From Desulfobacterales bacterium (GTDB lineage Bacteria; Desulfobacterota; Desulfobacteria; Desulfobacterales; JAAELO01), in contig JAAELO010000054.1 of assembly GCA_024226555.1 (NCBI GenBank), forward strand, positions 16,241 to 80,240: DNA of 64,000 nucleotides. Direction: 5' to 3'. Position 1 is the stretch's first letter; every line of letters begins with the position of its first letter. Shown piece by piece: positions 33,150 to 62,779 of the stretch. The notes beneath the pieces were generated by a model that was not told the origin of the DNA, did no database searches, and was given only the letters and a program-made list of their open reading frames with translations. The position numbers and the translations under genes are program-made.

Positions 33150-33178
33150 AGTTTAACCTATATCACATAAAGAGTCAA
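33150..33178 (-). promoter_or_regulatory. Promoter of the packaging/structural operon
   Basis: Minus strand -35 TTGACT (33173-33178) and -10 TAAACT (33150-33155), spacer 17. The spacer carries TTATGTGATA, related to the TATGTGTTA box of the other phage promoters. Lies 50 bp before terS. Confidence 0.6.
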
Positions 33179-33196
33179 GCGTTAAATGTTAATATT

Positions 33197-34491: not shown

Positions 34492-34597
34492 TAAATTAGC
34501 CTATATTAATAGACTAATCTGAGAATGTTAGTGTAGTTATCTTGTTTTGTTACTGCACTAACAAATATAGATAAAGTGTTATTACAGATAAAGAAGC

Positions 34598-34627
34598 TTG
34601 ACATAAGTGTTACAAATAGTTTAAAAT
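34598..34627 (+). promoter_or_regulatory. Promoter of the vWA/RNR operon with shared operator
   Basis: -35 TTGACA (34598-34603), -10 TAAAAT (34622-34627). Upstream TTACAGATAAAGAAGC and the spacer AAGTGTTAC match the modules in front of the minus-strand cassettes at 50.7, 51.7 and 55.2 kb. The only plus-strand member of the set found. Confidence 0.65.
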
Positions 34628-34759: not shown

Positions 34760-34912
34760 GGAGTGGTCAGTATACCCACACGAAGGATCGCAAAAAGTAT
34801 ACAAAAATGGATTGGAGGGTATGGTCTGGTATAGCCAAGGTAAGGATTACCGAAGTATACCACTTTTCATAGTTGTGGTTTGGTGTAGCCCCGCAAAGGA
34901 TTGTAAAAATAT
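34760..34912 (+). repeat. Three tandem imperfect repeats in the vWA leader
   Basis: Three ~60-bp units share GGTnTGGTnTAGCC...AAGGATT...AGTATACC (first unit degenerate). Each unit can form a GGTATA/TATACC-type stem that presents an AAGGAT loop; the middle one has a clean inner GGTAA/TTACC stem. Looks like a protein-binding or translation-control leader. Confidence 0.5.
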
Positions 34913-34925
34913 ACCATGATTTAGT

Positions 34926-34970
34926 TTGGGAGGTTTTACGGCTTCCTCCCACTAACCAAAAAAAGCCGCA
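34926..34970 (+). promoter_or_regulatory. Mutually exclusive hairpins before the vWA gene
   Basis: GGGAGG pairs with CCTCCC, while CGGCTT (inside that loop) can pair with AAGCCG downstream; the two stems cannot form together. This is attenuator-like, but no U-run follows either stem. Confidence 0.4.
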
Positions 34971-36006: not shown

Positions 36007-36167
36007 TGTCAGAACTAAATCAACTACGTATAGGTTCAAACAGGTTTTTAAGCTTTCTTACTGTGATGCTCATTCTTACACTTGATGCAAATAACGGTAA
36101 AGATATGCTAGACGTACTTGTACCTTACATTGAATCACTAACAATTGTTAATCTAGGTAATCATTGA
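36006..36167 (+). CDS. 53-aa membrane protein
   Basis: Start overlaps the upstream stop (TAATG) and its stop overlaps the RNR start (TGATG). One transmembrane segment (FLSFLTVMLILTL) at residues ~14-26. Too short for the track. Translationally coupled to RNR; role unknown. Confidence 0.6.
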   Translation: MSELNQLRIGSNRFLSFLTVMLILTLDANNGKDMLDVLVPYIESLTIVNLGNH

Positions 36168-37906
36168 TGGAATCTGAATTCAGAACAGATTTGGGGAGAA
36201 ATATCTTCAAACAAAAATATGCACTTACACAAGCTGAAACTTGGAAGCAACGTGCTAAAACCATTGTTGATTTTGTTTGTGGAACATGTGGTGGTACACA
36301 ACATCCTCTCATGTCTCTTGAAGATAGAGAAACCTTAATTCAATACATAACTGAATTCAAATTTATGCCCGGTGGTCGTTACATCTATTATGCAGGTAGA
36401 GAAGCACCATTTTACAATAATTGCTATCTTTTTAAATCAGAAGAAGATACACGCGAAGAGTGGGCAGACTTATCTAAACGTGTTACTAGTGCATTAATGA
36501 CAGGTGGTGGTGTTGGTAATGACTACTCAGTGTTTAGACCACAAGGAAGCTTGTTAGGTAGAACTGGTGGGCAAGCTAGTGGCCCTATCCCATTAATGTA
36601 TTTAGTGAACGAGATAGGTAGAAACGTAAAACAAGGTGGTTCAAGAAGATCTGCAATTTATGCCTCACTAAACTGGAAACATGATGATGCACAAGTATTC
36701 ATGAGAGTTAAAGATTGGGACAATATACCTATTGGTAATACTGGAATTACTATGGGGGATGCCAAGAGAGCTGATTTCAATTTCCCCTGCCCTCTTGATA
36801 TGACTAATATTAGTTTGAATTATGACAATGCTTTCTTAAGTACTTTGTGTGGTGAAAATATTGATGATTTTGACATGGAAGAATGGGAGTGTCTATTTGA
36901 CCCTGAATGTGAAACACATGCTTTTATGCATGAAGTAGTTTTACCAGAAACCTTTGTTGATAATGTTAAATTTGCAATGCGTAATGGAGAGCCAGGATTT
37001 TCATTTAACTTTTTTGATAAAGAAAATGAAACTGCTCGTAACGCTTGTACTGAGGTTACTAGTGAAGATGATTCAGATGTATGTAATCTTGGTTCAATTA
37101 ATATGGGCAGAATTGAAACTATTGAAGAATTTATAAAAATTACAGAGCTTGGAAGTAAGTTTTTAGTTTGTGGCACATTGAGAGCTAAACTACCCTCTGA
37201 AAAAATAGCTGAAATACGTGAAAAGAATAGACGTTTAGGTTTAGGGATAATGGGTGTTCATGAATGGCTACTCAAGAGAAAATATGACTATGAAGTTACT
37301 CCAGAAATGCACAAATGGTTATCAGTTTATGAAACTGTTTCAGAAAGTGCTGCTAATGAGCATTGTGATCGTTTATTCATTTCTCGCCCCATTGCTTATA
37401 GGGCTATTGCTCCTACTGGTACTATTGGGATCATTGCTGGTACAACAACAGGAATAGAACCTCTATATGCTGTAGCCTACAAAAGACGTTATCTTGTTGG
37501 TGGCTCTCATTACCGTTATGAGTATGTAGTAGACCACACAGCAGACACATTAATAACTGAGCATGGGATAGATCCTAACGATATTCAAACAGCTTACCAG
37601 TTAGCGGAAGATCCTGAGAAGCGCATTAAGTTTCAGGCAGATGTACAAGACTATATTGATATGGCTATTAGTTCTACTCTGAACTTACCAGAATGGGGAT
37701 CTAAACATAACAATGAGAAAACTGTTATTAAAATAGCGTCAATCGTAGCTCAGTATGCACCACGCTTGAGGGGTTTAACATTCTACCCTGATGGTTCAAG
37801 AGGTGGTCAACCTCTTACACCCATCTCTTATGAAACTGCACTTAAACATAAAGGCGTTATTTTTGAAGAGAATGACTCATGTAAAGGTGGAGTTTGCGGA
37901 TTATGA
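36167..37906 (+). CDS. Adenosylcobalamin-dependent (class II) ribonucleotide reductase
   Basis: 579 aa; ATG at 36167 chosen over TTG 36164. Redox cysteines C86 (NNCYLF) and C306 (VCNLGSIN), radical-site N-A-C-T-E with C294, the phosphate loop APTGTIG...GIEP, and C-terminal thiol pair C572/C577 (SCKGGVCGL) are all present. No ATP-cone at the N-terminus, as in small monomeric-type class II enzymes. Makes deoxynucleotides for phage replication without oxygen dependence; needs cobalamin from the host. Confidence 0.93.
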   Translation: MESEFRTDLGRNIFKQKYALTQAETWKQRAKTIVDFVCGTCGGTQHPLMSLEDRETLIQYITEFKFMPGGRYIYYAGREAPFYNNCYLFKSEEDTREEWADLSKRVTSALMTGGGVGNDYSVFRPQGSLLGRTGGQASGPIPLMYLVNEIGRNVKQGGSRRSAIYASLNWKHDDAQVFMRVKDWDNIPIGNTGITMGDAKRADFNFPCPLDMTNISLNYDNAFLSTLCGENIDDFDMEEWECLFDPECETHAFMHEVVLPETFVDNVKFAMRNGEPGFSFNFFDKENETARNACTEVTSEDDSDVCNLGSINMGRIETIEEFIKITELGSKFLVCGTLRAKLPSEKIAEIREKNRRLGLGIMGVHEWLLKRKYDYEVTPEMHKWLSVYETVSESAANEHCDRLFISRPIAYRAIAPTGTIGIIAGTTTGIEPLYAVAYKRRYLVGGSHYRYEYVVDHTADTLITEHGIDPNDIQTAYQLAEDPEKRIKFQADVQDYIDMAISSTLNLPEWGSKHNNEKTVIKIASIVAQYAPRLRGLTFYPDGSRGGQPLTPISYETALKHKGVIFEENDSCKGGVCGL

Positions 37907-38544: not shown

Positions 38545-38997
38545 ATGATTAGGCATTTCAGTATCAAGGAGCTTGTACCAAAACACATTTATGAACAATG
38601 GGGAGATATGTCTTGGTGGTTTCTAGATTTCAGAGCAATTAAGACGTTAGAGTGGTTGCGTGATGAGCTTGGTTCTTGCACTGTCAATAATTGGGCTTGG
38701 GGTGGTTCATATGATCAAAGTGGATTACGCACTTACCAATTTTATCAACAGAATTCACTTACTCCAAAATACATAGCAAAAGAGCTGGTAGCTGAAAGTT
38801 TTAGTCAACATAAATATGGAAGAGCTTTTGATTGTAAGTTTACAAATCACAAAGCAGAAGATGTAAGAGAGTTTATAAAAACAAATTGGAATATATACGG
38901 TTATGAGTGGCCTATAACAATAGAAGAAGATACAAATTGGGTTCACTTTGATACACGCAATAGACCATATCACAAGGTTTATACGTTTAAGCAATAA
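38545..38997 (+). CDS. M15-family peptidase, probable endolysin
   Basis: 150 aa. Zinc ligands H89 and D96 in SQHKYGRAFD and H134 in NWVHFD fit the D-Ala-D-Ala carboxypeptidase (M15) layout; catalytic E near EEDTNW. No signal peptide or cell-wall binding domain. Start is 2 bases after the previous stop. It probably cuts peptidoglycan cross-bridges at lysis, unless it has an ejection-time role. Confidence 0.82.
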   Translation: MIRHFSIKELVPKHIYEQWGDMSWWFLDFRAIKTLEWLRDELGSCTVNNWAWGGSYDQSGLRTYQFYQQNSLTPKYIAKELVAESFSQHKYGRAFDCKFTNHKAEDVREFIKTNWNIYGYEWPITIEEDTNWVHFDTRNRPYHKVYTFKQ

Positions 38998-39773: not shown

Positions 39774-40043
39774 ATGTCTACCAACAAAAAGACTAAAGTA
39801 AAACAAGGATCTAACATATTCCACCTTTCTACACGTCAGCATGATTTATGGGTTGCTATGCGTAAAGCTAGACGCTACCTAACAAACACTGAATTACGAG
39901 ATATAACAGGGATTACATGGCCTACTAATCGTATGAGTGAGCTTGTATCAATGGGTGTTAGTATCTCAAAGAAATGGATTGAGATTACAGATGATCATGG
40001 AAAACTGATCAAAGTTAGAACATATAAACTTGAGGCGGCATAG
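39774..40043 (+). CDS. Winged helix-turn-helix protein
   Basis: 89 aa; STRQHDLWVAMRKARRYLTNTELRDITGITWPTNRMSELVSMGVSI (in parts) is the pattern of short wHTH proteins found in phages that have a helix-turn-helix followed by IEITDDHGKLIKVRTYKL wing strands. Probable transcriptional regulator or DNA-binding accessory. AAGGAA before the start. Confidence 0.7.
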   Translation: MSTNKKTKVKQGSNIFHLSTRQHDLWVAMRKARRYLTNTELRDITGITWPTNRMSELVSMGVSISKKWIEITDDHGKLIKVRTYKLEAA

Positions 40044-46971: not shown

Positions 46972-47812
46972 AAAGCTTTTTGGATATTAAAATATATTGG
47001 AAGAGGCAATTTCGTGTTGAGCGCGGGGGGTGTGTACGACCACTTCCAATCCACAATCTGAAAATATCCATAAAGGATCTCCATTTACCCTGTACTGCAT
47101 TTAAAAACTTTTTTTATAGCATGAGATACCCCATATTAATGTAGCTTAAAATGGATTTGAGAGTCTTATAGGTGTATAAAAGAAGACTACTTTTTTTAAC
47201 ACTCTACTAATCTAATACCACTATGGTGCTGTGGCTCTCTCACATGCATCAGGTTAGACGTTCTCTATTTCATCCTTGAATGTTGGTGTCAATGCGCTTG
47301 TGTACACAGTGAGTATACAGAGCCTTATAGAGCTATATCATATATGGACATAATCACCTAATTACTATGATTTTAATTTATATTATATCTGCCCATGTCA
47401 CACAATATAGAAGCCCCCTTATATAGCCCCATATATAGCCCCCTTTATATAAAGCCCCATGTATAGGGGCTTTGCTATATCACACAATACTATTATGTGA
47501 CTTGTAAGCGGGTATTGTGGGCAGCTATTCAAAGGGGCTTTATATTGGGCGCTATATTGGGCTTTTTGTTGGTTGTTGCTCAGGAAAGGCCAAAAAACAG
47601 AAAAAAATTGAATTTTTATTCAACAATCAATCAAAGGAAAAAAAAAAGAATTAAAAAACTTTTTTTATTTTGCTAAACAAAAAACAGGCTTTACAAGGCT
47701 CTCAGCTTGCCTACACTGCACAATAAATTTTCTAAGGCTAGTTAATAGCTTTAGTATTTTAATTTGATTAGGGGCTTATAGGGAGGGCATAGCATGGATA
47801 TTTTAAAGGCAT
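46972..47812. other. Non-coding region with GCCCC/GGGGC repeats
   Basis: Over 800 bp without a credible gene. Between 47411 and 47556 there are four TATA(A)AGCCCC units followed by inverted GGGGCTTTATAT and GGGCGCTATAT units and flanking CACACAATA boxes, a clear local repeat array. Poly-purine and T-rich runs fill the rest. It could be a replication origin, partition site or regulatory hub next to the DUF932 gene. Confidence 0.5.
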
Positions 47813-47863: not shown

Positions 47864-48901
47864 TTATGCGGCTTCGAGCATATGTTTTAAAGCTTTATGT
47901 ACTAGCTTTTCTTTATCATTGCGGCCATTTACGCTTTGTGATTCGCTGTATTGTGGTTTGTTGCCGTGTGTACTGATATGAGTTAAAACGTTATTTAATG
48001 CCCATTGTGAAGCGCCAAGCTCCCTTTTATATTTTGACCATAGCGCCATGTGATGTTCAATAATTGGTTGACGTTTTAATGTTGGTCTAATTACACGTTG
48101 GTATTCTTCATAAGTTGGTGCTAATGAGGTATCAATTTTATTTATAATTGCTAACGCTTCATAAACAGTCTGAAAACTAACATCGGTTTTAACTTGCTGC
48201 ATAAAATCAGCTTTATCATTTTGGTATGCCTCAACTCCGCAAGTAATAACCTTAACCGCTTTTTCTACGCTTAAAGCTTGCGTATGTTTTTGTTTGTATT
48301 CTATTACAGGCTTTGCACTCACCATGCCATTTGCACAAATAAAACGATATGCAGAACATTTAATAGAAAAATTCCCAGAACCATCAAAGCTATTAGTAGC
48401 TGTTATTGAAAGTGCTACTTCATCCCTAACTGATGGATTGCTTGATACGTCAAAACTGGTAGACGGTAGGATAATTTCTAAACGCATTTTAGAACCATCA
48501 TTATCAATGCGGGTTCTAGTGAATGCATTTGTAAGATCAATATCAGATTGATTTAACGCTGCTAGTAGATTGGTTGTTAAATGCCTGTTATCTACAATTT
48601 TATATCCCTCACCTTGAACGCTTAAAGGCTTATTACTTGATGCATTAAAAATTGTTTTCATGCCAGTACTAACAGTATTACCATTATTATCAGTTGTTGA
48701 GTTATTGCGAGCAACAACATTATAAAATAAACCTTTTGACTCAATTTGTTCCGTTAGTGTTGCGCCTATATCATCAGTGGCTATGGTTGGAACGTTCCAA
48801 TGTGTTGTTCCTTCCTTTGCTTGTGAATAGTCGATAGCTTGCGCTTGTGTTTCTTGATTTTTACCAAAGATAGCCACTACGTTATTGTTTGAAGTATTCA
48901 T
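47864..48901 (-). CDS. DUF932 domain protein
   Basis: 345 aa. VQGEGYKIVDNRHLTTNLLAAL ... RDEVALSITATNSFDGSGNFSIKCSAYRFICANGM (in parts) is the DUF932 (plasmid/phage-like) pattern; helical C-terminus ...HHMALWSKYKREL... . Family members occur on plasmids and phages near replication regions; biochemical role unproven. Transcribed with a 56-aa gene from a shared-operator promoter and closed by a strong terminator. Confidence 0.85.
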   Translation of the reverse strand: MNTSNNNVVAIFGKNQETQAQAIDYSQAKEGTTHWNVPTIATDDIGATLTEQIESKGLFYNVVARNNSTTDNNGNTVSTGMKTIFNASSNKPLSVQGEGYKIVDNRHLTTNLLAALNQSDIDLTNAFTRTRIDNDGSKMRLEIILPSTSFDVSSNPSVRDEVALSITATNSFDGSGNFSIKCSAYRFICANGMVSAKPVIEYKQKHTQALSVEKAVKVITCGVEAYQNDKADFMQQVKTDVSFQTVYEALAIINKIDTSLAPTYEEYQRVIRPTLKRQPIIEHHMALWSKYKRELGASQWALNNVLTHISTHGNKPQYSESQSVNGRNDKEKLVHKALKHMLEAA

Positions 48902-49174: not shown

Positions 49175-49202
49175 ATAATAAACACTTAACACATAGAAGC
49201 AA
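49175..49202 (-). promoter_or_regulatory. Shared-operator promoter for the DUF932 cassette
   Basis: TTGCTT (49197-49202), spacer 16 with CTATGTGTTAAG, -10 TATTAT (49175-49180); upstream ATAACAGATAGAATGC. Confidence 0.6.
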
Positions 49203-49432
49203 GCATTCTATCTGTTATATTTTAAATTAAATTTATAATGCTTATAAGTTATTGATTTGATTCTTATTTTTTCACATTTTTTCTTTTCTTTTTTTCAGCT
49301 ATCTATTACGCTTATATAGTCATTAGAAAAGCGGTTTTATTGATTCGGTAATAGCTAACGTTAAACAATAGCCGTAAATGATTTTTTAATAACACCATCA
49401 AATTTTTATTTTCAAAACTTCTCTTTCAATAA

Positions 49433-49517
49433 CTCTCAAAAAAAAGTAAAAGCTTGCCGGACGATTTTTTTTTTCAAGTTTTCAATAAATAAAGTAAAAC
49501 CTATCTGGAAGAAAATT
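49433..49517 (+). repeat. 36-bp repeat copies A1 and B1
   Basis: A1 (49433-49474): CTCTCAAAA..AGTAAAAGC then TTGCCGGACGATTTTT. B1 (49491-49517): AAAGTAAAACC then TATCTGGAAGAAAATT, a diverged right half. Same A-then-B order recurs at 51.97 kb. Confidence 0.8.
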
Positions 49518-49523
49518 CAGGCA

Positions 49524-49550
49524 TAAAAAAAGGCGCTTAATTAGCGCCTA
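49524..49550 (-). terminator. Intrinsic terminator
   Basis: Minus strand AGGCGCTAATTAAGCGCCT followed by a T-run; closes the 50.7-49.6 kb cassette. Confidence 0.85.
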
Positions 49551-49583
49551 TATTTTTGAGTTAAGTTTTATTTTTATCTATGA

Positions 49584-50285
49584 TTAAGCTTCGAGGGCTT
49601 CAATATCAGCACGTTTGCACCATGTTGAGGTATCGCAGTAATCAACACCTTTTTCGTAATATTTATAATTCTCCTCATTTGTGCCAGTTCTGATAAATGA
49701 ATTTGTATAAGTTCCAGAATTAAATTCACTCATAAAAAACATGTTTAATCCTTCCTTGGTAGTATGCCAGTTTTTAGGGGGTAAAACTTCTAGCATATCC
49801 CAATAGCGTTCACGGTCAATTTCAATTGGATTTGAAACCCAGCAAGCCTTTTGAGTGGCTTCATATTCTGACCATGTAATAATTTTATAAGGTTGATCTT
49901 TCTTTTCATATTCGTTTTCAGTTGGTTTATTTTTATCATCGCGTGTAGCTATAGCGCAGCTCTCATCGCTGTAAAAGTTCCAGATTGAATTGATTTTATT
50001 AACTAACACAAATGGGCGTGTGAATTCTATTGGCTGCATTTGGTAAGCAATGCGCTTTATAATAGCTGATCTTTTTGTTTCGTCTTTGAAGTTATTACAG
50101 GCATAAATACTAACCTCTTCAAAATCTCCACTTTCTTTTAATTTCTTTTGAATAATTTGTGCATCTTCAGCGTTAAATGATGTGTCATTTTCAACGATAA
50201 CCATAGAAACAAAATAATTTTGTTCTTTTGATTCCATAGTAAAAACATGATAAAAATTTTCTTTCTTTGATTGAGAAGTTTTCAT
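49584..50285 (-). CDS. Hypothetical protein
   Basis: 233 aa from MKTSQSKKEN (AAGGTG before it). Mixed fold with aromatic/charged C-terminus (DYCDTSTWCKRADIEAL). No family recognised. Second gene of its cassette. Confidence 0.6.
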   Translation of the reverse strand: MKTSQSKKENFYHVFTMESKEQNYFVSMVIVENDTSFNAEDAQIIQKKLKESGDFEEVSIYACNNFKDETKRSAIIKRIAYQMQPIEFTRPFVLVNKINSIWNFYSDESCAIATRDDKNKPTENEYEKKDQPYKIITWSEYEATQKACWVSNPIEIDRERYWDMLEVLPPKNWHTTKEGLNMFFMSEFNSGTYTNSFIRTGTNEENYKYYEKGVDYCDTSTWCKRADIEALEA

Positions 50286-50312
50286 TGTTAACACCTTATA
50301 AATTTAATTAAA

Positions 50313-50681
50313 TTATTGTTTACCGTAAAAATGTTCTGCAATTTGTTGTTGGGTGATTGGGTAATCTGCTAACTTATCAACACAATCTTCTATATCACCA
50401 GTATAATAACATTCATGATTGTTTAACTCGCGTTCAATAATTGCCTTGATTCCATTTTCTTTTATATCTTGTTCAATACCTTGTTCTGCAATTTTATTGA
50501 GTCCATCCATAAGCTCTTTAGCATTACATTTTGGAGCGATTAAACCAGCACCACAACTAACATAAATTACATCTTTTTCTCTCTTCTCTTCAAGCTGAGA
50601 ATTGCTGAAAGCGAAAAACGCGCCCATATCATTAAAAAGTTTTGTTTGTGCTTCTTCTATATAATCAGATAAGTATTTCAT
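50313..50681 (-). CDS. Hypothetical protein (DUF7659-like)
   Basis: 122 aa. YIEEAQTKLFNDMGAFFAFSNSQLEEK (in parts) with ISCGAG-like ...VYVSCGAGLI... and a C-terminal ITQQQIAEHFYG match a small family seen in phage accessory regions. No biochemical role known. Confidence 0.55.
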   Translation of the reverse strand: MKYLSDYIEEAQTKLFNDMGAFFAFSNSQLEEKREKDVIYVSCGAGLIAPKCNAKELMDGLNKIAEQGIEQDIKENGIKAIIERELNNHECYYTGDIEDCVDKLADYPITQQQIAEHFYGKQ

Positions 50682-50712
50682 TTTTTAGCCCTTATTATTT
50701 AAGTTAAGATAA

Positions 50713-50740
50713 TTATTATTCATGTAACACATAATATCAA
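50713..50740 (-). promoter_or_regulatory. Shared-operator promoter
   Basis: TTGATA (50735-50740), spacer TTATGTGTTACATGAA (16), -10 TAATAA (50713-50718); upstream AATAACAGATAAAAAGC. Confidence 0.65.
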
Positions 50741-50768
50741 GCTTTTTATCTGTTATTTTTCAGGCAAT

Positions 50769-50792
50769 AAAAAAGGCACTAAAAAGCGCCCT
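50769..50792 (-). terminator. Intrinsic terminator
   Basis: Minus strand GGCGC-TTTTTA-GTGCC then T-run; closes the 51.7-50.8 kb cassette. Confidence 0.75.
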
Positions 50793-50810
50793 TTATAAAT
50801 CTAATTAAAT

Positions 50811-51392
50811 TTATATAGATTGGTGTTGCATTGTATTATTAACAGGTTTTTGCAATGCATCCTGTAAGATGGTTTTATTAGTTTCGGTTAACAGTTGGGC
50901 TTTTGTATTTTCTAATGCTTTGGCTTTAGACTTGCCACTTGCTAAACATTGCCCACTATGCGTATATACTCCCCAGTCCCCCAAATAATCAATAGAAGCT
51001 GGCCGAGCGACAAAAAGAGAAGGCCATTCTTTTATTTTTGCAGCCACTAGATCAACAAGTAATTGATTAGAATTATGATGAAAAATGACAGGCTTATCAA
51101 AGTTTTCAAGGTATTGAATAGCGTTGGCTGTTTCACCTGTAAGCATAAATTCTTTAGCAGTAGTGGAACAATAAACACGATTAATTGATATTTTCCGTGG
51201 TGCTGTAAAAGTGCCTGTATAACAGCCCTTATTAAATCTAGCAATTAAAGCGTTTTTTGCTTCTACAGTTGCCTTGCATGAAACCTTAAAATTATCAATT
51301 TTAAAATGATAGCGTCCATCTACTGGTAGTGGTTGTTGCTCTTGAATTGCTTTGGCAATTTCTGGAAATGTGTTTTTTTTGTATGTATTCAT
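50811..51392 (-). CDS. Hypothetical protein
   Basis: 193 aa, basic, mixed fold with STTAKEFMLTGETANAIQYL and a C-terminal GKSKAKALENTKAQLL. No family recognised. Second gene of its cassette, 10 bp after the first. Confidence 0.6.
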   Translation of the reverse strand: MNTYKKNTFPEIAKAIQEQQPLPVDGRYHFKIDNFKVSCKATVEAKNALIARFNKGCYTGTFTAPRKISINRVYCSTTAKEFMLTGETANAIQYLENFDKPVIFHHNSNQLLVDLVAAKIKEWPSLFVARPASIDYLGDWGVYTHSGQCLASGKSKAKALENTKAQLLTETNKTILQDALQKPVNNTMQHQSI

Positions 51393-51402
51393 TTTTTAAC
51401 CC

Positions 51403-51690
51403 TCATTTAATTTTATAATTTACTTTTATTTCTTCTGGTTTACATGGTGGAGCAGCATATAGAATAAGTGACTGAGAACTATTGTTAGATTTATTTTCGT
51501 TCGTAGCAGCAAGCTCTATAATTCTGTTTAAATCCTTATCGTTTAATTGCTCGTATACATCAACATTTCTATTAGCGTTTATATGTGCTACCTGTAAATA
51601 GTCACCGTGTTTTTCATGCAATCTATCCGCTACAGAGTAACCGTTACCCATATGATAAAAATTTATTTCGCGTTTAATTTCTTTAGTCAT
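51403..51690 (-). CDS. Hypothetical protein
   Basis: 95 aa from MTKEIKREIN (AGG site before); track start is upstream and unlikely. Contains MGNGYSVADRLHEKHGDYLQVAHI, no recognised family. Confidence 0.55.
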   Translation of the reverse strand: MTKEIKREINFYHMGNGYSVADRLHEKHGDYLQVAHINANRNVDVYEQLNDKDLNRIIELAATNENKSNNSSQSLILYAAPPCKPEEIKVNYKIK

Positions 51691-51731
51691 GTATAACCTC
51701 GTAAAATCAATTAATTTAATAATTACGCTTA

Positions 51732-51759
51732 AGTTAAAACATTTAACACATAGTAGCAA
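51732..51759 (-). promoter_or_regulatory. Shared-operator promoter
   Basis: TTGCTA (51754-51759), spacer CTATGTGTTAAATGTT (16), -10 TTAACT (51732-51737); upstream AATAACAGATAAAAAGC identical to the 50.7 kb copy. Confidence 0.65.
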
Positions 51760-51784
51760 GCTTTTTATCTGTTATTTAATGGAT

Positions 51785-51808
51785 AAAAAAAACCACTAAA
51801 AAGTGGTT
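51785..51808 (-). terminator. Intrinsic terminator
   Basis: Minus strand AACCACTTTTTAGTGGTT plus T-run. It lies after the repeat block that follows the recombinase cassette, so repeats A2/B2 sit inside that transcript's 3' end. Confidence 0.8.
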
Positions 51809-51968
51809 TAATTTGTTGACTCAATAATATAGGCTGATAAAGCTAGTTAGATTCTATATTCTGCTACTGTATATTTATATAGTGGTTTATATTGCTGTGT
51901 GTTTATACAGTAGAGCCAGATATAAAACAGATTAAATTTATAACCTGTGAATGATACAATGGCTCTAT

Positions 51969-52045
51969 CTCTCAAAAAAGTAAAACCTTGCCGGACGATT
52001 TTTTTTTCCCTCAAAAAAGTAAAACCTATCTGGAAGAAATTTTTA
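51969..52045 (+). repeat. 36-bp repeat copies A2 and B2
   Basis: A2 (51969-52007) and B2 (52008-52045) lie head to tail: CTCAAAAAAGTAAAACC common left half; right halves TTGCCGGACGATTTTT (A) and TATCTGGAAGAAATTTTT (B). Just downstream of the recombinase cassette. Confidence 0.85.
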
Positions 52046-52059
52046 ACAAAAAAATTAGT

Positions 52060-52251
52060 TCAATCAACTATTGTTATCTCTATCTTATCTGCTCCAAGGT
52101 CTTCTTTATCTTGATAACCATGCTCCCCAGCGCCATGCAGATAAATGTCTACAAATCTATTTTTAACATCTTCTAACGTTTCTCCTTCTTCTAAAGTTAC
52201 AATTGTTTTAACTTCTGCTACGATTTTTATAGTGATCTCTTCATTACTCAT
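52060..52251 (-). CDS. Small acidic protein
   Basis: 63 aa (ITIKIVAEVKTIVTLEEGETLEDVKNRF, in parts), beta-rich, acidic. Follows the recombinase gene by 11 bp. No family recognised. Confidence 0.55.
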   Translation of the reverse strand: MSNEEITIKIVAEVKTIVTLEEGETLEDVKNRFVDIYLHGAGEHGYQDKEDLGADKIEITIVD

Positions 52252-52262
52252 TTTTCTATCCT

Positions 52263-52817
52263 CTATAATTCAAATTCATCATATGTTTTCAGAGTAGCTT
52301 CTTTAGTCAAGCCAATATAAGCCATTGTAACGGCAGGTGAGCTATGGTTTAACACTTCGCTTATCTGTTCAATAGAAACACCACTAGAATGCATTATATA
52401 GCCCCTAGTTTTACGCATAGAGTGAGTACTAAGTTTAATATCAACTATATCCCCTATCTCTTTAAACTTTCTGGCTACAGTTTCACGTTTTAGGTGATCG
52501 CACTTGATGCGTTTACTTTGAGATTGAAACAAAAACTTATCGTCTGGTCTGTCTTCACGTCTACGCTCAATTATAGCCAATGCACTATTATTAAAACGCA
52601 CAGTTCTAGATTTACCTGTTTTCTGTTCCTTGGTTGTATATTCTCTTGTGTTCATGTTTATATTGCTGTACTCAATATCTAGCAAGTCTGAAATTCTAAA
52701 TGCTACATTTATTCCCAGCTTCCATATATCAGCATAATCTTGTGAACCATGCTTTAACAGCAAGTTTTCAATTCGCTGTATATCATCTTTACTTTTAACA
52801 GCATCAACTTCATTCAC
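52263..52817 (-). CDS. Short tyrosine recombinase (FimB/FimE-sized)
   Basis: 184 aa, catalytic domain only. R41 (AFRISDLL), lysines in KEQKTGKSR, H132-xx-R135 (THSMRKT), H158 (NHSSPAV) and Y167 (AYIGL) form the complete active set. No N-terminal core-binding domain, as in the fimbrial inverting recombinases. Flanked on one side by a copy of the 36-bp repeat. Likely performs site-specific inversion, excision or multimer resolution; target sites are not proven. Confidence 0.88.
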   Translation of the reverse strand: MNEVDAVKSKDDIQRIENLLLKHGSQDYADIWKLGINVAFRISDLLDIEYSNINMNTREYTTKEQKTGKSRTVRFNNSALAIIERRREDRPDDKFLFQSQSKRIKCDHLKRETVARKFKEIGDIVDIKLSTHSMRKTRGYIMHSSGVSIEQISEVLNHSSPAVTMAYIGLTKEATLKTYDEFEL

Positions 52818-52850
52818 TTGTTAGCCCTCAATATTTATTAATTAAACTCT

Positions 52851-52878
52851 ATTATAATCATGTAACACTAATAGTCAA
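52851..52878 (-). promoter_or_regulatory. Shared-operator promoter for the recombinase cassette
   Basis: TTGACT (52873-52878), spacer ATTAGTGTTACATGAT (16), -10 TATAAT (52851-52856); upstream AATAACACATAAGTTG gives a TAACAC...GTGTTA inverted repeat. Confidence 0.7.
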
Positions 52879-52901
52879 CAACTTATGTGTTATTTAATGA
52901 A

Positions 52902-52928
52902 TAAAAAAAACCGCTTGTTAGGCGGCTT
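52902..52928 (-). terminator. Intrinsic terminator
   Basis: Minus strand AGCCGC-CTAACAA-GCGGTT plus eight T, closing the 55.1-52.9 kb operon. Confidence 0.8.
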
Positions 52929-52948
52929 CTAATACTCTCTAGTGGATT

Positions 52949-53266
52949 TTAATTTTTATTAGCTTCTTGTTCTGCTATATGCGCTCTTTTCACCCTGTAC
53001 ACTGTCTGGTGGCTACAGTTGCATTTTTTAGCAACATCCAAAGCTCTGAGGTTATTAACGAATAAGAGTTTAATTATTTTCTTATGTAACTCTCTCTCTT
53101 CATCAGTTAACACTCTACCAACATAAACCCGTTCTGGTTTTTCAAGAATTTCTATAGCTTTTTCTAATCTTGATATAGCTTGAATATATTTACCGTTTGA
53201 AGGTTTTAATCGTAAACCATCAAGTTTATTTGTGAGTTGTTTTATTTGTGATTGTAATATTTTCAT
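52949..53266 (-). CDS. Helix-turn-helix protein
   Basis: 105 aa. C-terminal RALDVAKKCNCSHQTVYRVKRAHI is a Hin/recombinase-type helix-turn-helix; the N-terminal part is a coiled coil. Possibly a DNA-binding regulator or recombination accessory. Last gene of its operon before a terminator. Confidence 0.65.
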   Translation of the reverse strand: MKILQSQIKQLTNKLDGLRLKPSNGKYIQAISRLEKAIEILEKPERVYVGRVLTDEERELHKKIIKLLFVNNLRALDVAKKCNCSHQTVYRVKRAHIAEQEANKN

Positions 53267-53278
53267 TTTAAAACCTTT

Positions 53279-53674
53279 TTAAGAACCTAGATAATAATAG
53301 ATTTCGTTATCAGTTCCAAGTCCTAACCTACCAATAGTTTTATCGTCTTTTTCGTACCCTTCCCAATCTATTGGTGATTGTTCAAGATATTCATTATCTT
53401 CTCTTACATCACCACTAATTAACTGCAAGAATAAAGCGTTAGATTCAATATCACTCATTTGATTAATTTCTTCTTCATCCATACCAGCATTAACCATATC
53501 AGTTTTCAATGCTTGTATTTGTTCAGGCGTTTTAAGTAGTATTAAGGATTCACTTTCATCAATAGCGGCTTGCCATGTGATTTTAGCTGCATTTTCCCCT
53601 TTTTCCATTATTGAGCCAGAATAATTAGATGGTTCTAAATCGTTAGTAAAATAATCTGTTACGTTAATTTCCAT
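53279..53674 (-). CDS. Acidic hypothetical protein
   Basis: 131 aa, strongly acidic, DNA-mimic-like in composition (DMVNAGMDEEEINQMSDIESNALF, in parts). Such acidic proteins in phage accessory operons are often anti-defence factors, but I have only composition as evidence. Confidence 0.5.
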   Translation of the reverse strand: MEINVTDYFTNDLEPSNYSGSIMEKGENAAKITWQAAIDESESLILLKTPEQIQALKTDMVNAGMDEEEINQMSDIESNALFLQLISGDVREDNEYLEQSPIDWEGYEKDDKTIGRLGLGTDNEIYYYLGS

Positions 53675-53675
53675 C

Positions 53676-53894
53676 TCAATAACTCCTTAAAGAAATTTCT
53701 ATAATTTCATTCTGATTTTTAGGAAACGCTTTAGCACTCCAATCCATCACATTCTTTTCAATAGCTGCAAAGCTTTCACCATAAACGGGTATCTCTTTCA
53801 CCCATGTTTTATTTTTACCAGTGGGGTCAATCATTTTTAATTTAACATCATAACGGTTTTTTGCGGTTAGGCATGTATCTGTATCGGTAGTCAT
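53676..53894 (-). CDS. Hypothetical protein
   Basis: 72 aa, ends 4 bases into the next gene's end. Beta-rich (RYDVKLKMIDPTGKNKTWVKE). No family recognised. Confidence 0.5.
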   Translation of the reverse strand: MTTDTDTCLTAKNRYDVKLKMIDPTGKNKTWVKEIPVYGESFAAIEKNVMDWSAKAFPKNQNEIIEISLRSY

Positions 53895-54322
53895 TCTTTT
53901 GCCTTTTCAATTATTGAATAGATTTCTTCAAATGAAAAATGATGATCAGGATGATTAATATCTAGCTCATCATTATAACAATTATCATTTGAAGTTAGAT
54001 CTGTTAAATTATAATAGAGTGCTTCTAACATCGCTAACGGGATTTCAACTTTTTTGTATAAATCAGCTAAGTCAGCTTCAATCAACACCATTAAATTATC
54101 AGGTATTTGATCAAGTCTTAAAAGTTTATCACTAGTTTCATCTAAAAATGATTTTGTTACTTCTATTGAACAACCAACGCCATTAGGTGCTGATGGATTT
54201 TCACAACAACCACGGGCAAAATAAACACCACGTTCTAACGTATCAATATATACGATTGTGTATCGGTCAAGTGTTTCACCACCATTATCTAATACAATTA
54301 CATTTGAATTTTTAATTTTCAT
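53891..54322 (-). CDS. Hypothetical protein
   Basis: 143 aa from MKIKNSNVIV (ORF track starts inside the neighbour). Mixed fold with YFARGCCENPSAPNGVGC and an acidic C-terminus. No family recognised. Confidence 0.55.
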   Translation of the reverse strand: MKIKNSNVIVLDNGGETLDRYTIVYIDTLERGVYFARGCCENPSAPNGVGCSIEVTKSFLDETSDKLLRLDQIPDNLMVLIEADLADLYKKVEIPLAMLEALYYNLTDLTSNDNCYNDELDINHPDHHFSFEEIYSIIEKAKE

Positions 54323-54329
54323 TTTATAC

Positions 54330-54689
54330 CTATTTATTTTGTGGCTTATAACCACAAACCCAACTTAAAGAATTAGTTATTAACTTAGCTGCATTTTCTG
54401 GAGATATGCCATTCACAGAATAATGATGATTCCATTTACCAGAATATGGATTTGAATGATGTGTTAATTCTCTACCGTTTAAAGCATTTTCAAAGCGAGT
54501 GAAAACAGTAAATACTGCTGAGTTTTCATGACGGACAGTTATCAACAATTTACCCGCTTTAGTTTGTAACGTGTAAAGAGAGTACTTTTCTCTATCGAAA
54601 TTTTTTGAACACGAAACATAATCTTTTAACTCTACTTCTATGTGAGTAGTAACCAGTTCTGTAAACTTTCGCTGTTTTGCAGTATGCAC
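54330..54689 (-). CDS. Hypothetical protein
   Basis: 119 aa, mixed fold (LYTLQTKAGKLLITVRHENSAVFTVFTRF), ...NPYSGKWNHHYSVNG... . No family recognised. Confidence 0.55.
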   Translation of the reverse strand: MHTAKQRKFTELVTTHIEVELKDYVSCSKNFDREKYSLYTLQTKAGKLLITVRHENSAVFTVFTRFENALNGRELTHHSNPYSGKWNHHYSVNGISPENAAKLITNSLSWVCGYKPQNK

Positions 54690-54700
54690 TTTAGATACCC

Positions 54701-55102
54701 CTATTTTCTATTTTCTATTTCTAATTCTTTTTTTAAGTCTGGACTTTCAATTTTTGTCACATGACCACATATATCATTAAGCCATAAATCACGCTTTCCT
54801 GTTTTAAAATCCTTTACCGTTCGATTATAAGAACAACGTAAACCATCAAGCGTTAAACTATGTGTTTGTACATCCAAACGTCCAAGCTCATCACAACTAT
54901 TCAGAAGCAATCCACTTTGAGAAACATTAAAGAATTTTTTAATTTCTTTTAAAAGCTCTTTCAGTGTGTCAGCTTCAAAAACTAATGGCTCATCTAAAAA
55001 ACGACTACAACCAGTGGAAGGGTCGCAGCCTTTTTTAAAATTATCAAGTTCACTGTGAACCAGTGAAAACATTACCATGTATTTTTTACCTGTTTTATCC
55101 AT
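54701..55102 (-). CDS. Hypothetical protein, first of a six-gene operon
   Basis: 133 aa from MDKTGKKYMV; CSRFLDEPLVF and GRLDVQTHSLTLDGLRCSY. No family recognised. Promoter 45 bp upstream. Confidence 0.55.
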   Translation of the reverse strand: MDKTGKKYMVMFSLVHSELDNFKKGCDPSTGCSRFLDEPLVFEADTLKELLKEIKKFFNVSQSGLLLNSCDELGRLDVQTHSLTLDGLRCSYNRTVKDFKTGKRDLWLNDICGHVTKIESPDLKKELEIENRK

Positions 55103-55146
55103 TATAAACACCTACTATGCTTTCGTTTGTTTTTTCATTATTGAGG

Positions 55147-55174
55147 ATTATAAGTTATTAACACTTAGTGTCAA
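55147..55174 (-). promoter_or_regulatory. Shared-operator promoter, best-formed member
   Basis: TTGACA (55169-55174), spacer CTAAGTGTTAATAACT (16), -10 TATAAT (55147-55152). Upstream TAACACATAACAG gives an inverted repeat TAACAC...GTGTTA across 55159-55187. Confidence 0.75.
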
Positions 55175-55184
55175 CTGTTATGTG

Positions 55185-55625
55185 TTACTTAATTGTATCA
55201 ACTGCCAAAGTAGCAGAAGTATAACCACTTGTTGCAATTGATAGCTCAAAACTCTTATTTATATGTTTAATCAATTTGTTATAACTAATTTCATAATTAT
55301 GATTTTGTAAACCTTCACAATCAACATCTTGAAATTCAAAATTAATAAGGATGCCATCACCATAATATGTAGAATCAAGTGAAACTATAAACATATCACC
55401 ATAATAAATCTTATTATTGTTATAACCTGTATTGCTTGGTATTAATCCATATTTTGCACAAATCGGTAATTCAAGAATAGTTTCTTTTAGTTGGTCTAAA
55501 ACAAATTCAAAAGCCCAACCATCATCATCTTCACCATAACCTTCTTCATCTTCAACTTGAATATTTACCCAATAAGCTTTTATATCTCTATTTTCTTCTA
55601 ATGTGTAGTAACAACCTGCGCCCAT
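55185..55625 (-). CDS. Hypothetical protein
   Basis: 146 aa, acidic, aromatic (GAGCYYTLEENRDIKAYWVNI, EDDDGWAFEFVL). No family recognised. Own promoter at 55.67 kb. Confidence 0.6.
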   Translation of the reverse strand: MGAGCYYTLEENRDIKAYWVNIQVEDEEGYGEDDDGWAFEFVLDQLKETILELPICAKYGLIPSNTGYNNNKIYYGDMFIVSLDSTYYGDGILINFEFQDVDCEGLQNHNYEISYNKLIKHINKSFELSIATSGYTSATLAVDTIK

Positions 55626-55664
55626 TTTGATAACCTCAATTATTTTTCTAAGTAGTTGCGTTCA

Positions 55665-55692
55665 AGTATAGGCATGTAACTATTAACGTCAA
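55665..55692 (-). promoter_or_regulatory. Shared-operator promoter
   Basis: TTGACG (55687-55692), spacer TTAATAGTTACATGCC (16), -10 TATACT (55665-55670). Upstream TTAACGTATAAAAAAC. Confidence 0.6.
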
Positions 55693-55778
55693 GTTTTTTA
55701 TACGTTAAAAGTTAAAATAAATTATATTTTGATTTGAATCAATAAGTTAGGGAGGGAGTTTTAGAGTTTTAATCGAGA

Positions 55779-56469: not shown

Positions 56470-56796
56470 TCATACTTTTAAACTTCTTGCTAGTGGCTTC
56501 TCTTCAATAGGTAGGAAAGAAATTGGGCTTTGTTTATCATATGTAACATAAAGAGCAGGTTGAAAGCCTTCGTTTATGATCTTAAGATAACCTTTTTTGG
56601 TCAATCTACCTAAAACTCCATGTGTGTTTACAGGTGGTTTTCCAAAATGTTCTGACACTTCTTTCCATGTCACTGCTTGTTTTTGTTGCCTGATAAAATT
56701 TATAATATTAATTTGATATGGTGAGAGTCGCATACCTCTCATGTAATCTTTTCTATTTTCAAATAAAAACCTGATGTCTTTCTCGTTAACGTTCAT
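56470..56796 (-). CDS. Winged helix-turn-helix regulator
   Basis: 108 aa from MNVNEKDIRF; LSPYQINIINFIRQQKQAVTWKEVSEHFGKPPVNTHGVLGRLTKKGYL (in parts) is a wHTH DNA-binding core of MarR type, without other domains. Between the palindrome pair and TerD-like gene. Candidate controller of this region. Confidence 0.75.
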   Translation of the reverse strand: MNVNEKDIRFLFENRKDYMRGMRLSPYQINIINFIRQQKQAVTWKEVSEHFGKPPVNTHGVLGRLTKKGYLKIINEGFQPALYVTYDKQSPISFLPIEEKPLARSLKV

Positions 56797-56924
56797 GATG
56801 CTATCTCTCATTATTTAGAATAGCGGGGCTTAGGTTTTATAATTCTTATTATCTTTAAAACCCCGTTATCCTATTTTGTACTGACTAATCTTAATACTAA
56901 AGCTTTGAGTTTAGACCACAAAGT

Positions 56925-57497: not shown

Positions 57498-57707
57498 GTT
57501 ATTTCCTTTATTTCTTATAGTTTTATTAAACCTAACATTACTGCTAGGGCTGTCCTCTTGGACATCACCACTAAACATTCCTGTTCAATATTCCACTTTA
57601 AATGTATCCTTCCTCTTGGTGTGTTATTAAGACTAGAAGAGGTTTTATAGGTATGCCAATTAAAAGTTTTATGGCTCGTAAGCTCTTATTTTTAATATAG
57701 AAACTAC

Positions 57708-57782
57708 TTGACACGGATTGTCAAACAAATTAATCTTTAGAAGTTTGTCATATTTGACAAATTAATTTTTAAACAATAAATA
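57708..57782 (+). promoter_or_regulatory. Tandem promoters with paired palindromic operators upstream of csrA
   Basis: Palindromes TTGACA-CGGAT-TGTCAA (57708-57724) and TTTGTCA-TATT-TGACAAA (57744-57761). Each provides a -35 TTGACA with a plausible -10 17 bases on (TAATCT at 57731, TAAATA at 57777). A repressor bound to either would block its own promoter. AAATTAAT repeats follow both. Confidence 0.6.
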
Positions 57783-57810
57783 ATTTCAGATTATAGGGAA
57801 ATACAAAACT

Positions 57811-58104
57811 ATGTTAATACTTACTCGCAGACCTCAAGAAGCTATAATGGTTGGTGATGATGTCACTGTAACTGTTCTTAGTATAAAGGGTAATCAAGTA
57901 CGCTTGGGTATTGATGCCCCTCGTGACGTAGATGTGCATCGTGAAGAGATTTATCACAAGGTGAAGGAAGGTGTTCCCCATACCCCTCAACCCCATGTAA
58001 CAAACTCTGAAGACCCTCAAGGTGGAAATAAAATAAAAACCACAGTCATCAGAACTAAAAGTAGATCTTACCCTGAAGATGATGAAAATCGAGGTAATCA
58101 CTAA
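57811..58104 (+). CDS. csrA: CsrA RNA-binding regulator with C-terminal extension
   Basis: 97 aa. [12 protein letters not shown]...VTVTVL...[11 protein letters not shown]...VHREEIY matches CsrA over the whole fold, including L4, R6 and the RNA-binding VHREE at ~42-46. Usual CsrA is about 60 aa; the extra ~40 residues ([36 protein letters not shown]) are polar. Binds GGA in mRNA leaders to block or alter translation. A phage copy could retune host Csr targets or its own mRNAs. GGG AAAT ribosome site. Confidence 0.93.
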
Positions 58105-58187
58105 ACATAAATTTATTTATATTTTAAAAACCGCACTATGAGTTTGGGGGAATTCTCCCCCTTTACCCCCAAAAAAAGAATTACAAA

Positions 58188-58436
58188 ATGGATGTTTGGT
58201 ACAAGATTAAAACTCAACAAATAGAATCACTCAACCCACTTAATGATGAAGAGTTTAAAACCTTAATAACTATCAGTTATAAACAAACTACTATAAATAA
58301 TATTGAGATTTATAAGCTTCTACTCATCTCTCCCCACACATTTGAAAACTGGCTTAATGGGGAATTCTTCCCAAGCCCTACTGTTAGAATACTTGTTAGA
58401 CACTATATTTTAAAAAGTATTAAAAGTTTAACTTAA
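58188..58436 (+). CDS. Small putative HTH protein
   Basis: 82 aa. LISPHTFENWLNGEFFPSPTVRILVRHYI has a Cro/CI-like recognition-helix and following helix. A TTTGGGGG...CCCCCAAA hairpin sits just before its start, which may control translation. Candidate lysogeny or operon regulator. Confidence 0.55.
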   Translation: MDVWYKIKTQQIESLNPLNDEEFKTLITISYKQTTINNIEIYKLLLISPHTFENWLNGEFFPSPTVRILVRHYILKSIKSLT

Positions 58437-58725
58437 AAACCCCATATACACTAAACAACCGTCTAACACATTAACACTACCGTTCGTCTACTAACACATA
58501 CACTAAGCTTTACATTTACACAAAAACATGTTAAAATAATAGTATATCTTAAGGTTTTTTTTCTTGTATATAATCTTTTAAGTTTGTATGTATTTAAGGC
58601 TGATCTTTAAGTAGAATTTAAAATAGTGTTCTAAATAGTATTAACAACCACCGCGCATTAATACTATTATTCCCACCTCTTTCTGTTACCTGATACGGAT
58701 TAAAACCTCGCAAGGAGCGCCTATC
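58437..58725 (+). promoter_or_regulatory. Leader with promoter and 11-bp stem-loop
   Basis: Non-coding. Possible promoter TTTACA...TAAAAT near 58514-58542. A perfect 11-bp inverted repeat AATAGTATTAA/TTAATACTATT (58634-58644, 58658-58668) with a 13-base GC-rich loop lies 60 bp before the next gene. Confidence 0.45.
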
Positions 58726-60661: not shown

Positions 60662-61027
60662 TTAATGTAAGCTTTTTTTCAAGCTCTCTTTTGTCGGCCA
60701 GTTGGACATTTCTTTTACCACTAACCTCACAGGTATGCTTTCATTTTCTTCGCCATTGTAGTAGGCAATCATGTCACAAAATTCTTTGACATTATCTTCA
60801 TACCCTAACGGCCATTCATCTGTAGTTTCACATTCAAGTACATCTTTATCATCATTGACAATATATGATAATAACCATGAAACAGGGATATGTGCATTGT
60901 CAGCACTCATATTTATAAAAGCCATGAACAGGCTTATAGCTTGTTGACGTGTTTCATAAATTATATGGTGAAGTAGTTCGTTTTCTTCGAGAAGTGCATT
61001 GATCAATTTTTCATCTGACATGTTCAC
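60662..61027 (-). CDS. Hypothetical protein divergent from xis/int
   Basis: 121 aa, acidic, helical (NALLEENELLHHIIYETRQQAISLFMAF). No recognised repressor fold. Divergent from xis with overlapping regulatory DNA, so a place where a lysogeny gene is expected. Confidence 0.55.
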   Translation of the reverse strand: MNMSDEKLINALLEENELLHHIIYETRQQAISLFMAFINMSADNAHIPVSWLLSYIVNDDKDVLECETTDEWPLGYEDNVKEFCDMIAYYNGEENESIPVRLVVKEMSNWPTKESLKKSLH

Positions 61028-61061
61028 ATTTCCTTATGTGTTATTTAGTTTCCTTATAAAT

Positions 61062-61422: not shown

Positions 61423-62694
61423 ATGAAAAAACGCACCTACACCTGTCCAACTTCAAAAAAAGAATTTGTATTGCCAGCAAACCTGTATCCCAACAATCAC
61501 AAAATTGAGGGTAAATGGGTTTACAAATTACCAGAGGGAAAGAAGTCATTACATAAATGTGTTTTAGATAAAGTTCCTGACTTGATACCTCCACAAATGG
61601 CAATTGAGATTGCCGAAATATTGAATGAAAAACATTATGGCATTCGCACTCAAAATAAGTCACCTAAAAAACTAAAAGGTTATATGACTGATCAGGTTGA
61701 AGACTTCATAACATGGATGCTTGAAAATGACTCTAATCATAAACTCACTTTAATTAAAAATGGCAAGCGTGTTGATAAGGAAAATTGGAAAGGTTTACAG
61801 TCTCTTTTGAGGCGTATGGGTGATGCTTTTAATCAGTACACTTTTAGTGAACTACCTTTTGAAGAACTTTCAGACTGGTATCAGGATAATAATAATTTCA
61901 CAGGCAACACCCAAGCAAAAGCTAGAACTATTTACCTTAAATTTTTTACTCATAATATACATTCTGATCCTCGCTTCATGTTGCTGTTTAGTGCAGGTGG
62001 TTTGAAGATAGATATTTCTGATAAGAAGCGCAGTAGACTCAGTGGATCTCAATTTAATAAAATTCGAGATTTGGCAATTGCAGATAACGAATGGGCATTA
62101 ATTAATGCTATGGACATCGGCTTATTAACAATGCTAAGACGCACCAATATATGCAATTTGCAGTTTGCGAATATAGAAGACGATAAATTACATGTTGAAT
62201 TGATAAAGAAGAAACAGCCTGTCATTTTTGTTTTTAACCTGAATGATGAAAGCAATCAGGCATTACATGATGTGATTAAACGCTGTCGAGTTCAGAGCCA
62301 TGATGTTATGAAAGGAAGCATCACCACACCAGCAACTAATCTGATCCATAAGATTTGGTATAGAAAACACTCATTCAGAAATGTGGTTATTAGTGGCAGG
62401 AAAGGTGAAAAGAATCACATCAGTTCAGTTCTACCACGTAAGCTCTCAAACCTGTTTCAAGAGTACCGTGACATGCTCCCTGAGATCGCCTCACTGCCCG
62501 TTGATGAACGCCCAACCTTTCATGAGATTCGCGCTCTAGGATGTCACAGAGCTATTAAAAGTGGCATGTCGCTGGAAGATGTTTCAATGCTCATGGGTCA
62601 TAAAGATGCAGAAACTACAGAGCGTTTTTATAAGCGTGGGCATGAAGAAGAAATTTATGATGTTGTGTGTGCTGTTGGTGATATTGCGGCTTGA
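61423..62694 (+). CDS. int: Tyrosine integrase
   Basis: 423 aa. Catalytic set: R near 248 in TMLRRTN, H367-xx-R370 (HEIR), H393 (GHKD), Y403 (RFYKRG). N-terminal ~80 residues are basic and suit an arm-type DNA-binding domain; residues ~85-200 are the core-binding domain (WKGLQSLLRRMGDAF). Ends 8 bp before the 3' end of the convergent tRNA gene, the usual arrangement at a tRNA attachment site. Confidence 0.93.
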   Translation: MKKRTYTCPTSKKEFVLPANLYPNNHKIEGKWVYKLPEGKKSLHKCVLDKVPDLIPPQMAIEIAEILNEKHYGIRTQNKSPKKLKGYMTDQVEDFITWMLENDSNHKLTLIKNGKRVDKENWKGLQSLLRRMGDAFNQYTFSELPFEELSDWYQDNNNFTGNTQAKARTIYLKFFTHNIHSDPRFMLLFSAGGLKIDISDKKRSRLSGSQFNKIRDLAIADNEWALINAMDIGLLTMLRRTNICNLQFANIEDDKLHVELIKKKQPVIFVFNLNDESNQALHDVIKRCRVQSHDVMKGSITTPATNLIHKIWYRKHSFRNVVISGRKGEKNHISSVLPRKLSNLFQEYRDMLPEIASLPVDERPTFHEIRALGCHRAIKSGMSLEDVSMLMGHKDAETTERFYKRGHEEEIYDVVCAVGDIAA

Positions 62695-62702
62695 TTAAGA
62701 AA

Positions 62703-62779
62703 TGGTGCGCCAGAACAGATTTGAACTGTTGACCTATGCCATGTCGAGGCATCGCTCTAACCAACTGAGCTACTGGCGC
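62703..62779 (-). tRNA. tRNA-Val(GAC)-like, with encoded CCA
   Basis: Folds as a 77-nt tRNA: acceptor GCGCCAG/CTGGCGC, A73 and CCA, D-arm GCTCAGTTGGTTAGAGC, anticodon stem ATGCC/GGCAT, T-arm AACAG/CTGTT. The anticodon GAC is at 62743-62745. Position 33 is C instead of the near-invariant U, so either functional oddity or a degenerate copy. The 3' end faces int. Confidence 0.85.

Follow-up and report, generated by a model that had tools for sequence, protein, structure and literature searches.

An inverted repeat straddling the −35 element marks a probable operator family in a Desulfobacterales myophage

The stretch of DNA considered here (the window) makes up the right-hand 64 kb of a contig of 80,240 bp from a Desulfobacterales bacterium (JAAELO010000054.1). 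It carries a phage with a contractile tail, which encodes terminase, portal, major capsid, sheath, tape measure and baseplate proteins, and the element under study, an inverted repeat (dyad) lying across the −35 region, recurs at its promoters. Because an excisionase-like gene (61157) and an integrase gene (61423-62694) adjoin a tRNA-Val gene (62703-62779), the phage is probably temperate, and the tRNA-Val gene is likely its attachment gene; the left attachment site (attL) was sought in the contig, and no match to the end of tRNA-Val was found there. Genes for ribonucleotide reductase (36164-37906) and endolysin (38545-38997) run on the plus strand from 34.6 kb, and the 16 kb of contig that precede the window on the left contain genes whose translations, judged by eye without a family search, look like DNA polymerase, primase/helicase and nuclease.

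The original prediction placed eight promoters, here named by their position in kb, and all eight exist, each upstream of and co-oriented with genes. The 33.15 promoter (33150-33191, minus strand; dyad 33161-33191; TTGACT-17-TAAACT) precedes a gene of 123 amino acids and then the terminase, portal, capsid and tail genes, while 34.60 (34582-34627, plus strand; dyad 34582-34612; TTGACA-18-TAAAAT) heads the operon with ribonucleotide reductase and endolysin. The remaining six are on the minus strand. The 49.18 promoter (49175-49217) has the dyad TAACAGATAG-N11-CTATGTGTTA at 49187-49217, a −35 TTGCTT at 49202-49197 and a −10 TATTAT at 49180-49175, and serves a DUF932 gene (47864-48901); 50.71 (50712-50755; dyad 50725-50755; TTGATA at 50740-50735 and AATAAT at 50717-50712) serves a DUF7659 gene (50313-50681); and 51.73 (51732-51774; dyad 51744-51774; TTGCTA at 51759-51754 and a weak −10, TTAACT, at 51737-51732) serves the gene at 51403. 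A tyrosine recombinase gene (52263-52817) is transcribed from 52.85 (52851-52892; dyad 52863-52892; TTGACT-16-TATAAT), the operon running from 54701 to 52949 is faced by 55.15 (55147-55187; dyad 55159-55187; consensus TTGACA-16-TATAAT), and the gene at 55185-55625 by 55.67 (55665-55707; dyad 55677-55707; TTGACG-16-TATACT), a good promoter and a doubtful member of the family.

Alignment of the eight promoters revealed that the shared unit is an inverted repeat, TAACA[G/C]ATAA-N11-TTATGTGTTA, with the TTG of the −35 hexamer near its centre. Its two half-sites of 10 bp have centres 19-21 bp apart, on roughly the same face of the DNA, and the whole spans about −51 to −20. The original prediction had instead described a box about 8 bp before the TTG, which in fact ends 3-6 bp before it, and a second box shared within the spacer, of which GTGTTA is present in six of the eight sites and the exact TATGTGTTA in only three; the inverted repeat that it had seen in the best copies is general, since most sites score high on the reverse strand as well. 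Its usual spacer of 16 bp holds for 49.18, 52.85, 55.15 and 55.67, but the spacer is 17 bp in 50.71 and 33.15 and 18 bp in 34.60, and at 51.73 a 16-bp spacing leads to a poor −10. Six of the eight sites pass as sigma-70 promoters (TTGACA/TATAAT-like hexamers 16-18 bp apart, with 9-12 of 12 matches), and 49.18 and 51.73 fall below the threshold of the promoter scan.

Dyad length is 31 bp in all sites but two, 52.85 (30 bp) and 55.15 (29 bp). Measured from where the upstream arm starts, the TTG most commonly comes after 15 bp, with 16 bp left until the downstream arm ends; the two distances are 13 and 18 bp at 33.15 and 16 and 15 bp at 34.60, so that the −35 slides by up to 3 bp while the total in these three placements is always 31 bp. 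This constancy, which is as expected of an operator, is the strongest sign in the sequence that the dyad itself would be the recognised unit. A rigid matrix anchored on the −35 misranked 34.60 because of this sliding, and a gapped model was used in its place.

Sites were scored leave-one-out on the two arms only, with the best score in shuffled 80-kb contigs (mean about 14.2 bits) as the null. Six sites reach 21-29 bits, namely 51.73 (28.5), 50.71 (27.8), 55.15 (27.1), 49.18 (24.2), 34.60 (22.7) and 52.85 (21.2); 33.15 (17.1) is modestly above chance, with two non-site positions in the real contig scoring at least as well, and 55.67 (12.0) is at chance for the motif. Adding a −10 matrix to the arm model gave a similar order of sites. 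Most of the proposed family thus exceeds shuffled sequence in the kind of matrix scan that the original prediction had put forward as its own check, and 55.67 does not. On these sequence comparisons, the family is real: seven of its sites can be counted as firm or fairly firm, and one is doubtful. The kind of family is ordinary and the details are new.

It might be argued that the likeness between sites reflects shared descent of promoter pieces without any operator function. Two pairs lend themselves to this account: 51.73 and 52.85 agree at 19 of the 20 bases upstream of the dyad, and a stretch of 39 bp is 90% identical between 49.18 and 51.73. However, the remaining flanks are unrelated, at chance identity, and the likeness ends at the dyad, so duplication of whole cassettes does not account for the motif; moreover, dyad symmetry and length are maintained in divergent copies and on both strands. 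We therefore regard shared descent as a very unlikely explanation.

Nor does the element appear to belong to the host. The exact pattern occurs in this contig only within the 7.7-Mb host bin, and once among 388 other genomes, in a genome of the host's class. A pattern scan of IMG/VR returned five isolated single matches, none with a promoter context like that of the phage, and about 85,000 species genomes of GTDB gave eight single matches in unrelated organisms; neither yielded a multi-site set. As no comparable set was found in any of these collections, the predicted binder is probably phage-encoded, and the idea that a host regulator binds the dyads is scarcely credible.

Taken together, the dyads are probably operators of one phage-encoded DNA-binding protein that would repress by occluding the −35 element. 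Repeated dyads, overlapping promoters and oriented with the genes that follow, are plainly visible in the window; protein binding is predicted from them, and repression as the sign of control and a single regulator are what we infer. One phage protein would bind the two inverted half-sites flanking the −35 and, judging from the geometry, would cover the region from about −51 to −20 and exclude sigma-70 polymerase, keeping the late, ribonucleotide reductase/endolysin and accessory-cassette promoters silent until it is removed. The original prediction had a box in the spacer blocking polymerase; the position would indeed block, although the predicted operator straddles the −35 and is not a mere spacer box. 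Its proposal of one element over all these genes likewise fits the terminase-led late, ribonucleotide reductase/endolysin and accessory promoters, but does not extend to the replication genes. The near-consensus hexamers of 55.15, 52.85 and 34.60 would need no activator, which suits repression.

Several observations weigh against this reading. The best dyads, at 49.18, 50.71 and 51.73, are paired with weak hexamers, as would suit activation; two dyads are 1-2 bp shorter than the rest; 55.67 does not rise above chance; and the gapped-model scan found no dyad in the 16 kb of replication genes left of the window, so the arrangement is not a plain copy of that of lambda CI. Conservation is a further point, in that no relative of the phage was found in which to check it: contigs related through the terminase (L011-L018) yielded no dyads of this kind, several of them ending before the promoter region, and a search with the VWA protein found no relative. 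Two DUF7659 loci were found elsewhere (L022, L023).

The weak hexamers at those three strong dyads raise the question of whether the protein might instead be an activator straddling the −35 as lambda CII does, switching on the late and accessory genes, and replication genes free of dyads would fit a late-stage activator. Lambda CII sites consist of direct repeats that flank the −35 and keep a fixed position. The phage sites resemble them in overlapping or flanking the −35 of phage promoters, but their repeats are inverted and the −35 shifts inside them, whereas activators of this type need a fixed position; furthermore, the three near-consensus promoters should work unaided. Activation is for these reasons quite unlikely.

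Other multi-copy phage elements offer partial parallels to the predicted operators. The stoperators of Cluster A mycobacteriophages are repressor sites spread in many copies through a phage genome (PMC9283540), and the sites here are also repeated, but stoperators are asymmetric, with many copies away from promoters, whereas these are inverted repeats and all eight lie at promoters. In KplE1, the integrase IntS regulates its own gene, intS (PMC2951348), and the protein sites at the −35 are alike, but IntS controls that gene and not a regulon. The closest precedent is found in SPbeta, where a 15-bp element, SPBRE, recurs at ten phage promoters and is bound by MrpR, a repressor that has the fold of a tyrosine recombinase but lacks its catalytic residues (PMC10516654). 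In both phages one short element recurs at many promoters of one prophage (seven sites here), under what would here be a comparable master regulation, and a recombinase is among our candidate binders, so the systems would be similar in outline; in contrast to SPBRE, the dyad is 29-31 bp, and MrpR is a protein of about 320 amino acids with a core-binding domain (PMC10516654).

Which protein would bind the dyads is a matter of ranking candidates. The three proposed originally, at 52.95, 56.47 and 60.66 kb, were not confirmed, and the last has no recognisable DNA-binding family. Two others had been missed: the tyrosine recombinase (52263-52817, minus strand) and a winged-helix protein of 89 amino acids inside the ribonucleotide reductase operon (39774-40043, plus strand; PF14090 HTH_39, 21.8 bits against a cut-off of 21.3). 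We place the recombinase first, tentatively, as a possible but by no means favoured binder. Second, and rather unlikely, is a resolvase/sigma-like helix-turn-helix (HTH) protein of 105 amino acids (52949-53266, minus strand; sub-threshold HTH_7; PHROG 36, 4.4e-07), encoded by the last gene of the 55.15 operon; its adjacency to the recombinase gene may be a trace of an older connection to the control of late genes. After these come 39774, a winged-helix-like protein of 113 amino acids (56470-56811, minus strand; sub-threshold HTH_IclR/MarR matches) or another phage protein. The HTH or winged-helix matches of 39774, 52949, 56470 and the excisionase-like 61157 are mostly weak, and none of the four could be tied to the dyad by sequence.

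The recombinase, of 184 amino acids, consists of a catalytic Phage_integrase domain only (PF00589, 4.7e-23), and all its catalytic residues are intact, with R41, K66/K69, H132, R135, H158 and Y167 (R, K, HxxR, H, Y) invariant, which speaks against a role as regulator and departs from MrpR. Its structural model compares well, as a catalytic domain, with XerA, Cre and lambda Int (Z 15-18), against a Z of about 12 for the recombinase-fold repressors YopR/MrpR and SroF. In a Listeria phage (FHC174-PLM34; L146 1986-3043), an annotated sigma factor gene lies directly before a recombinase gene of the same family (about 180 amino acids), and some other Gram-positive phages carry a recombinase of this family near the terminase.

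The nearest plasmid relatives of the recombinase are encoded on Oceanisphaera pA (50% identity) and Pseudomonas monsensis pPGSB8459 (59%). In the 3.8-kb P. monsensis plasmid, both convergent ACA[GC]A[AT] pairs are immediately upstream of the recombinase gene; in the 114-kb Oceanisphaera plasmid, this holds for two of 12 pairs, and the full half-site adjoins the recombinase gene only. The ACA[GC]A half-site resembles an operator arm, a comparison that was partly defined after the sites had been seen and is suggestive only; the candidate has the recombinase fold and may bind the dyads. With the operator half-site matrix alone, the Oceanisphaera sites rank 150 and lower; the plasmid recombinases of Vibrio, Alteromonas, Photobacterium and Pseudoalteromonas (34-39% identity) have no ACASAW pairs upstream, and most phage homologs are without a strong upstream dyad.

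Beyond dyads near the recombinase gene, the likeness to the plasmids extends to a near-identical core in the window at 47481-47499 (plus strand), which agrees at 18 of 19 bases with the core dyad that precedes the recombinase gene in Oceanisphaera; in 100 shuffles the best match had two mismatches, and occurred once. This near-palindrome is part of 1.1 kb of non-coding DNA, and another CACACAATA occurs at 47399. The core CACACAATACTATTNTGTG is also found, as a terminator, in one unrelated viral contig, and such palindromes can thus recur by convergence. Core spacing is 5 bp at the plasmid sites, in contrast to 15 bp, measured likewise, in three of the predicted phage operators. We conclude that 47481-47499 is probably the recombinase's own crossover or resolution site, and not an operator, so that the recombinase is predicted to be a working enzyme and its operator role is only a possibility.

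A catalytically intact recombinase invites the proposal that the dyads are themselves its recombination sites, exchanging promoter-gene-terminator cassettes. Six of them are direct repeats around cassettes, terminators lie directly upstream of several, and the upstream flank of 51.73 is held in common with 52.85 only. But strand exchange needs equal cores, and those between the arms are 9, 10 or 11 bp and differ in sequence from site to site, whereas a canonical 5-bp-core site is available at 47481-47499; we consider this highly improbable. A combined role, in which the intact recombinase recombines at the 5-bp core and silences the regulon through the wider-spaced, non-recombinable dyads, is unlikely, though if true, half-site spacing would be all that one protein needs to connect genome resolution with gene control.

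Other features of the window were seen in passing. Single half-sites, not beyond chance, occur as TAACACATAA at 61034-61043 in the leader of the 60.66-kb gene (60662-61027), and as TAACACATTA and TAACACATAC at 58464-58501, downstream of a small, possibly HTH-like gene (58188-58436). That gene follows a csrA-like gene recognised by eye (57811-58104; both in 57700-58436), whose promoter region has a palindrome, TTTGTCATATTTGACAAA, unlike the dyad; the csrA-like gene, its palindrome and 58188-58436 are perhaps a second regulatory unit. A direct repeat of about 46 bp, CTCTCAAAAAAGTAAAA[GC]CTTGCCGGACGATTTTTT in its best copies, has six intergenic copies (49434, 51968, 52007, 56254, 56300 and 56346), three in tandem, which are perhaps iterons or structured RNA. 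The leader of the ribonucleotide reductase operon (34760-34930) contains imperfect repeats of the type TGGTCTGGTATAGCC...GTATACCA, seen by eye; it has no Rfam match, and a repeat-finding program did not call the repeats.

Overall, the dyads outline a probable regulon in a temperate myophage not otherwise characterised, with what would be one switch for its late genes, its ribonucleotide reductase and its accessory cassettes. The authors of the MrpR study suspect that recombinases acting as transcription factors are widespread (PMC10516654), and the recombinase at 52263-52817, should it prove to bind the dyads, would be an example that is still enzymatically intact.

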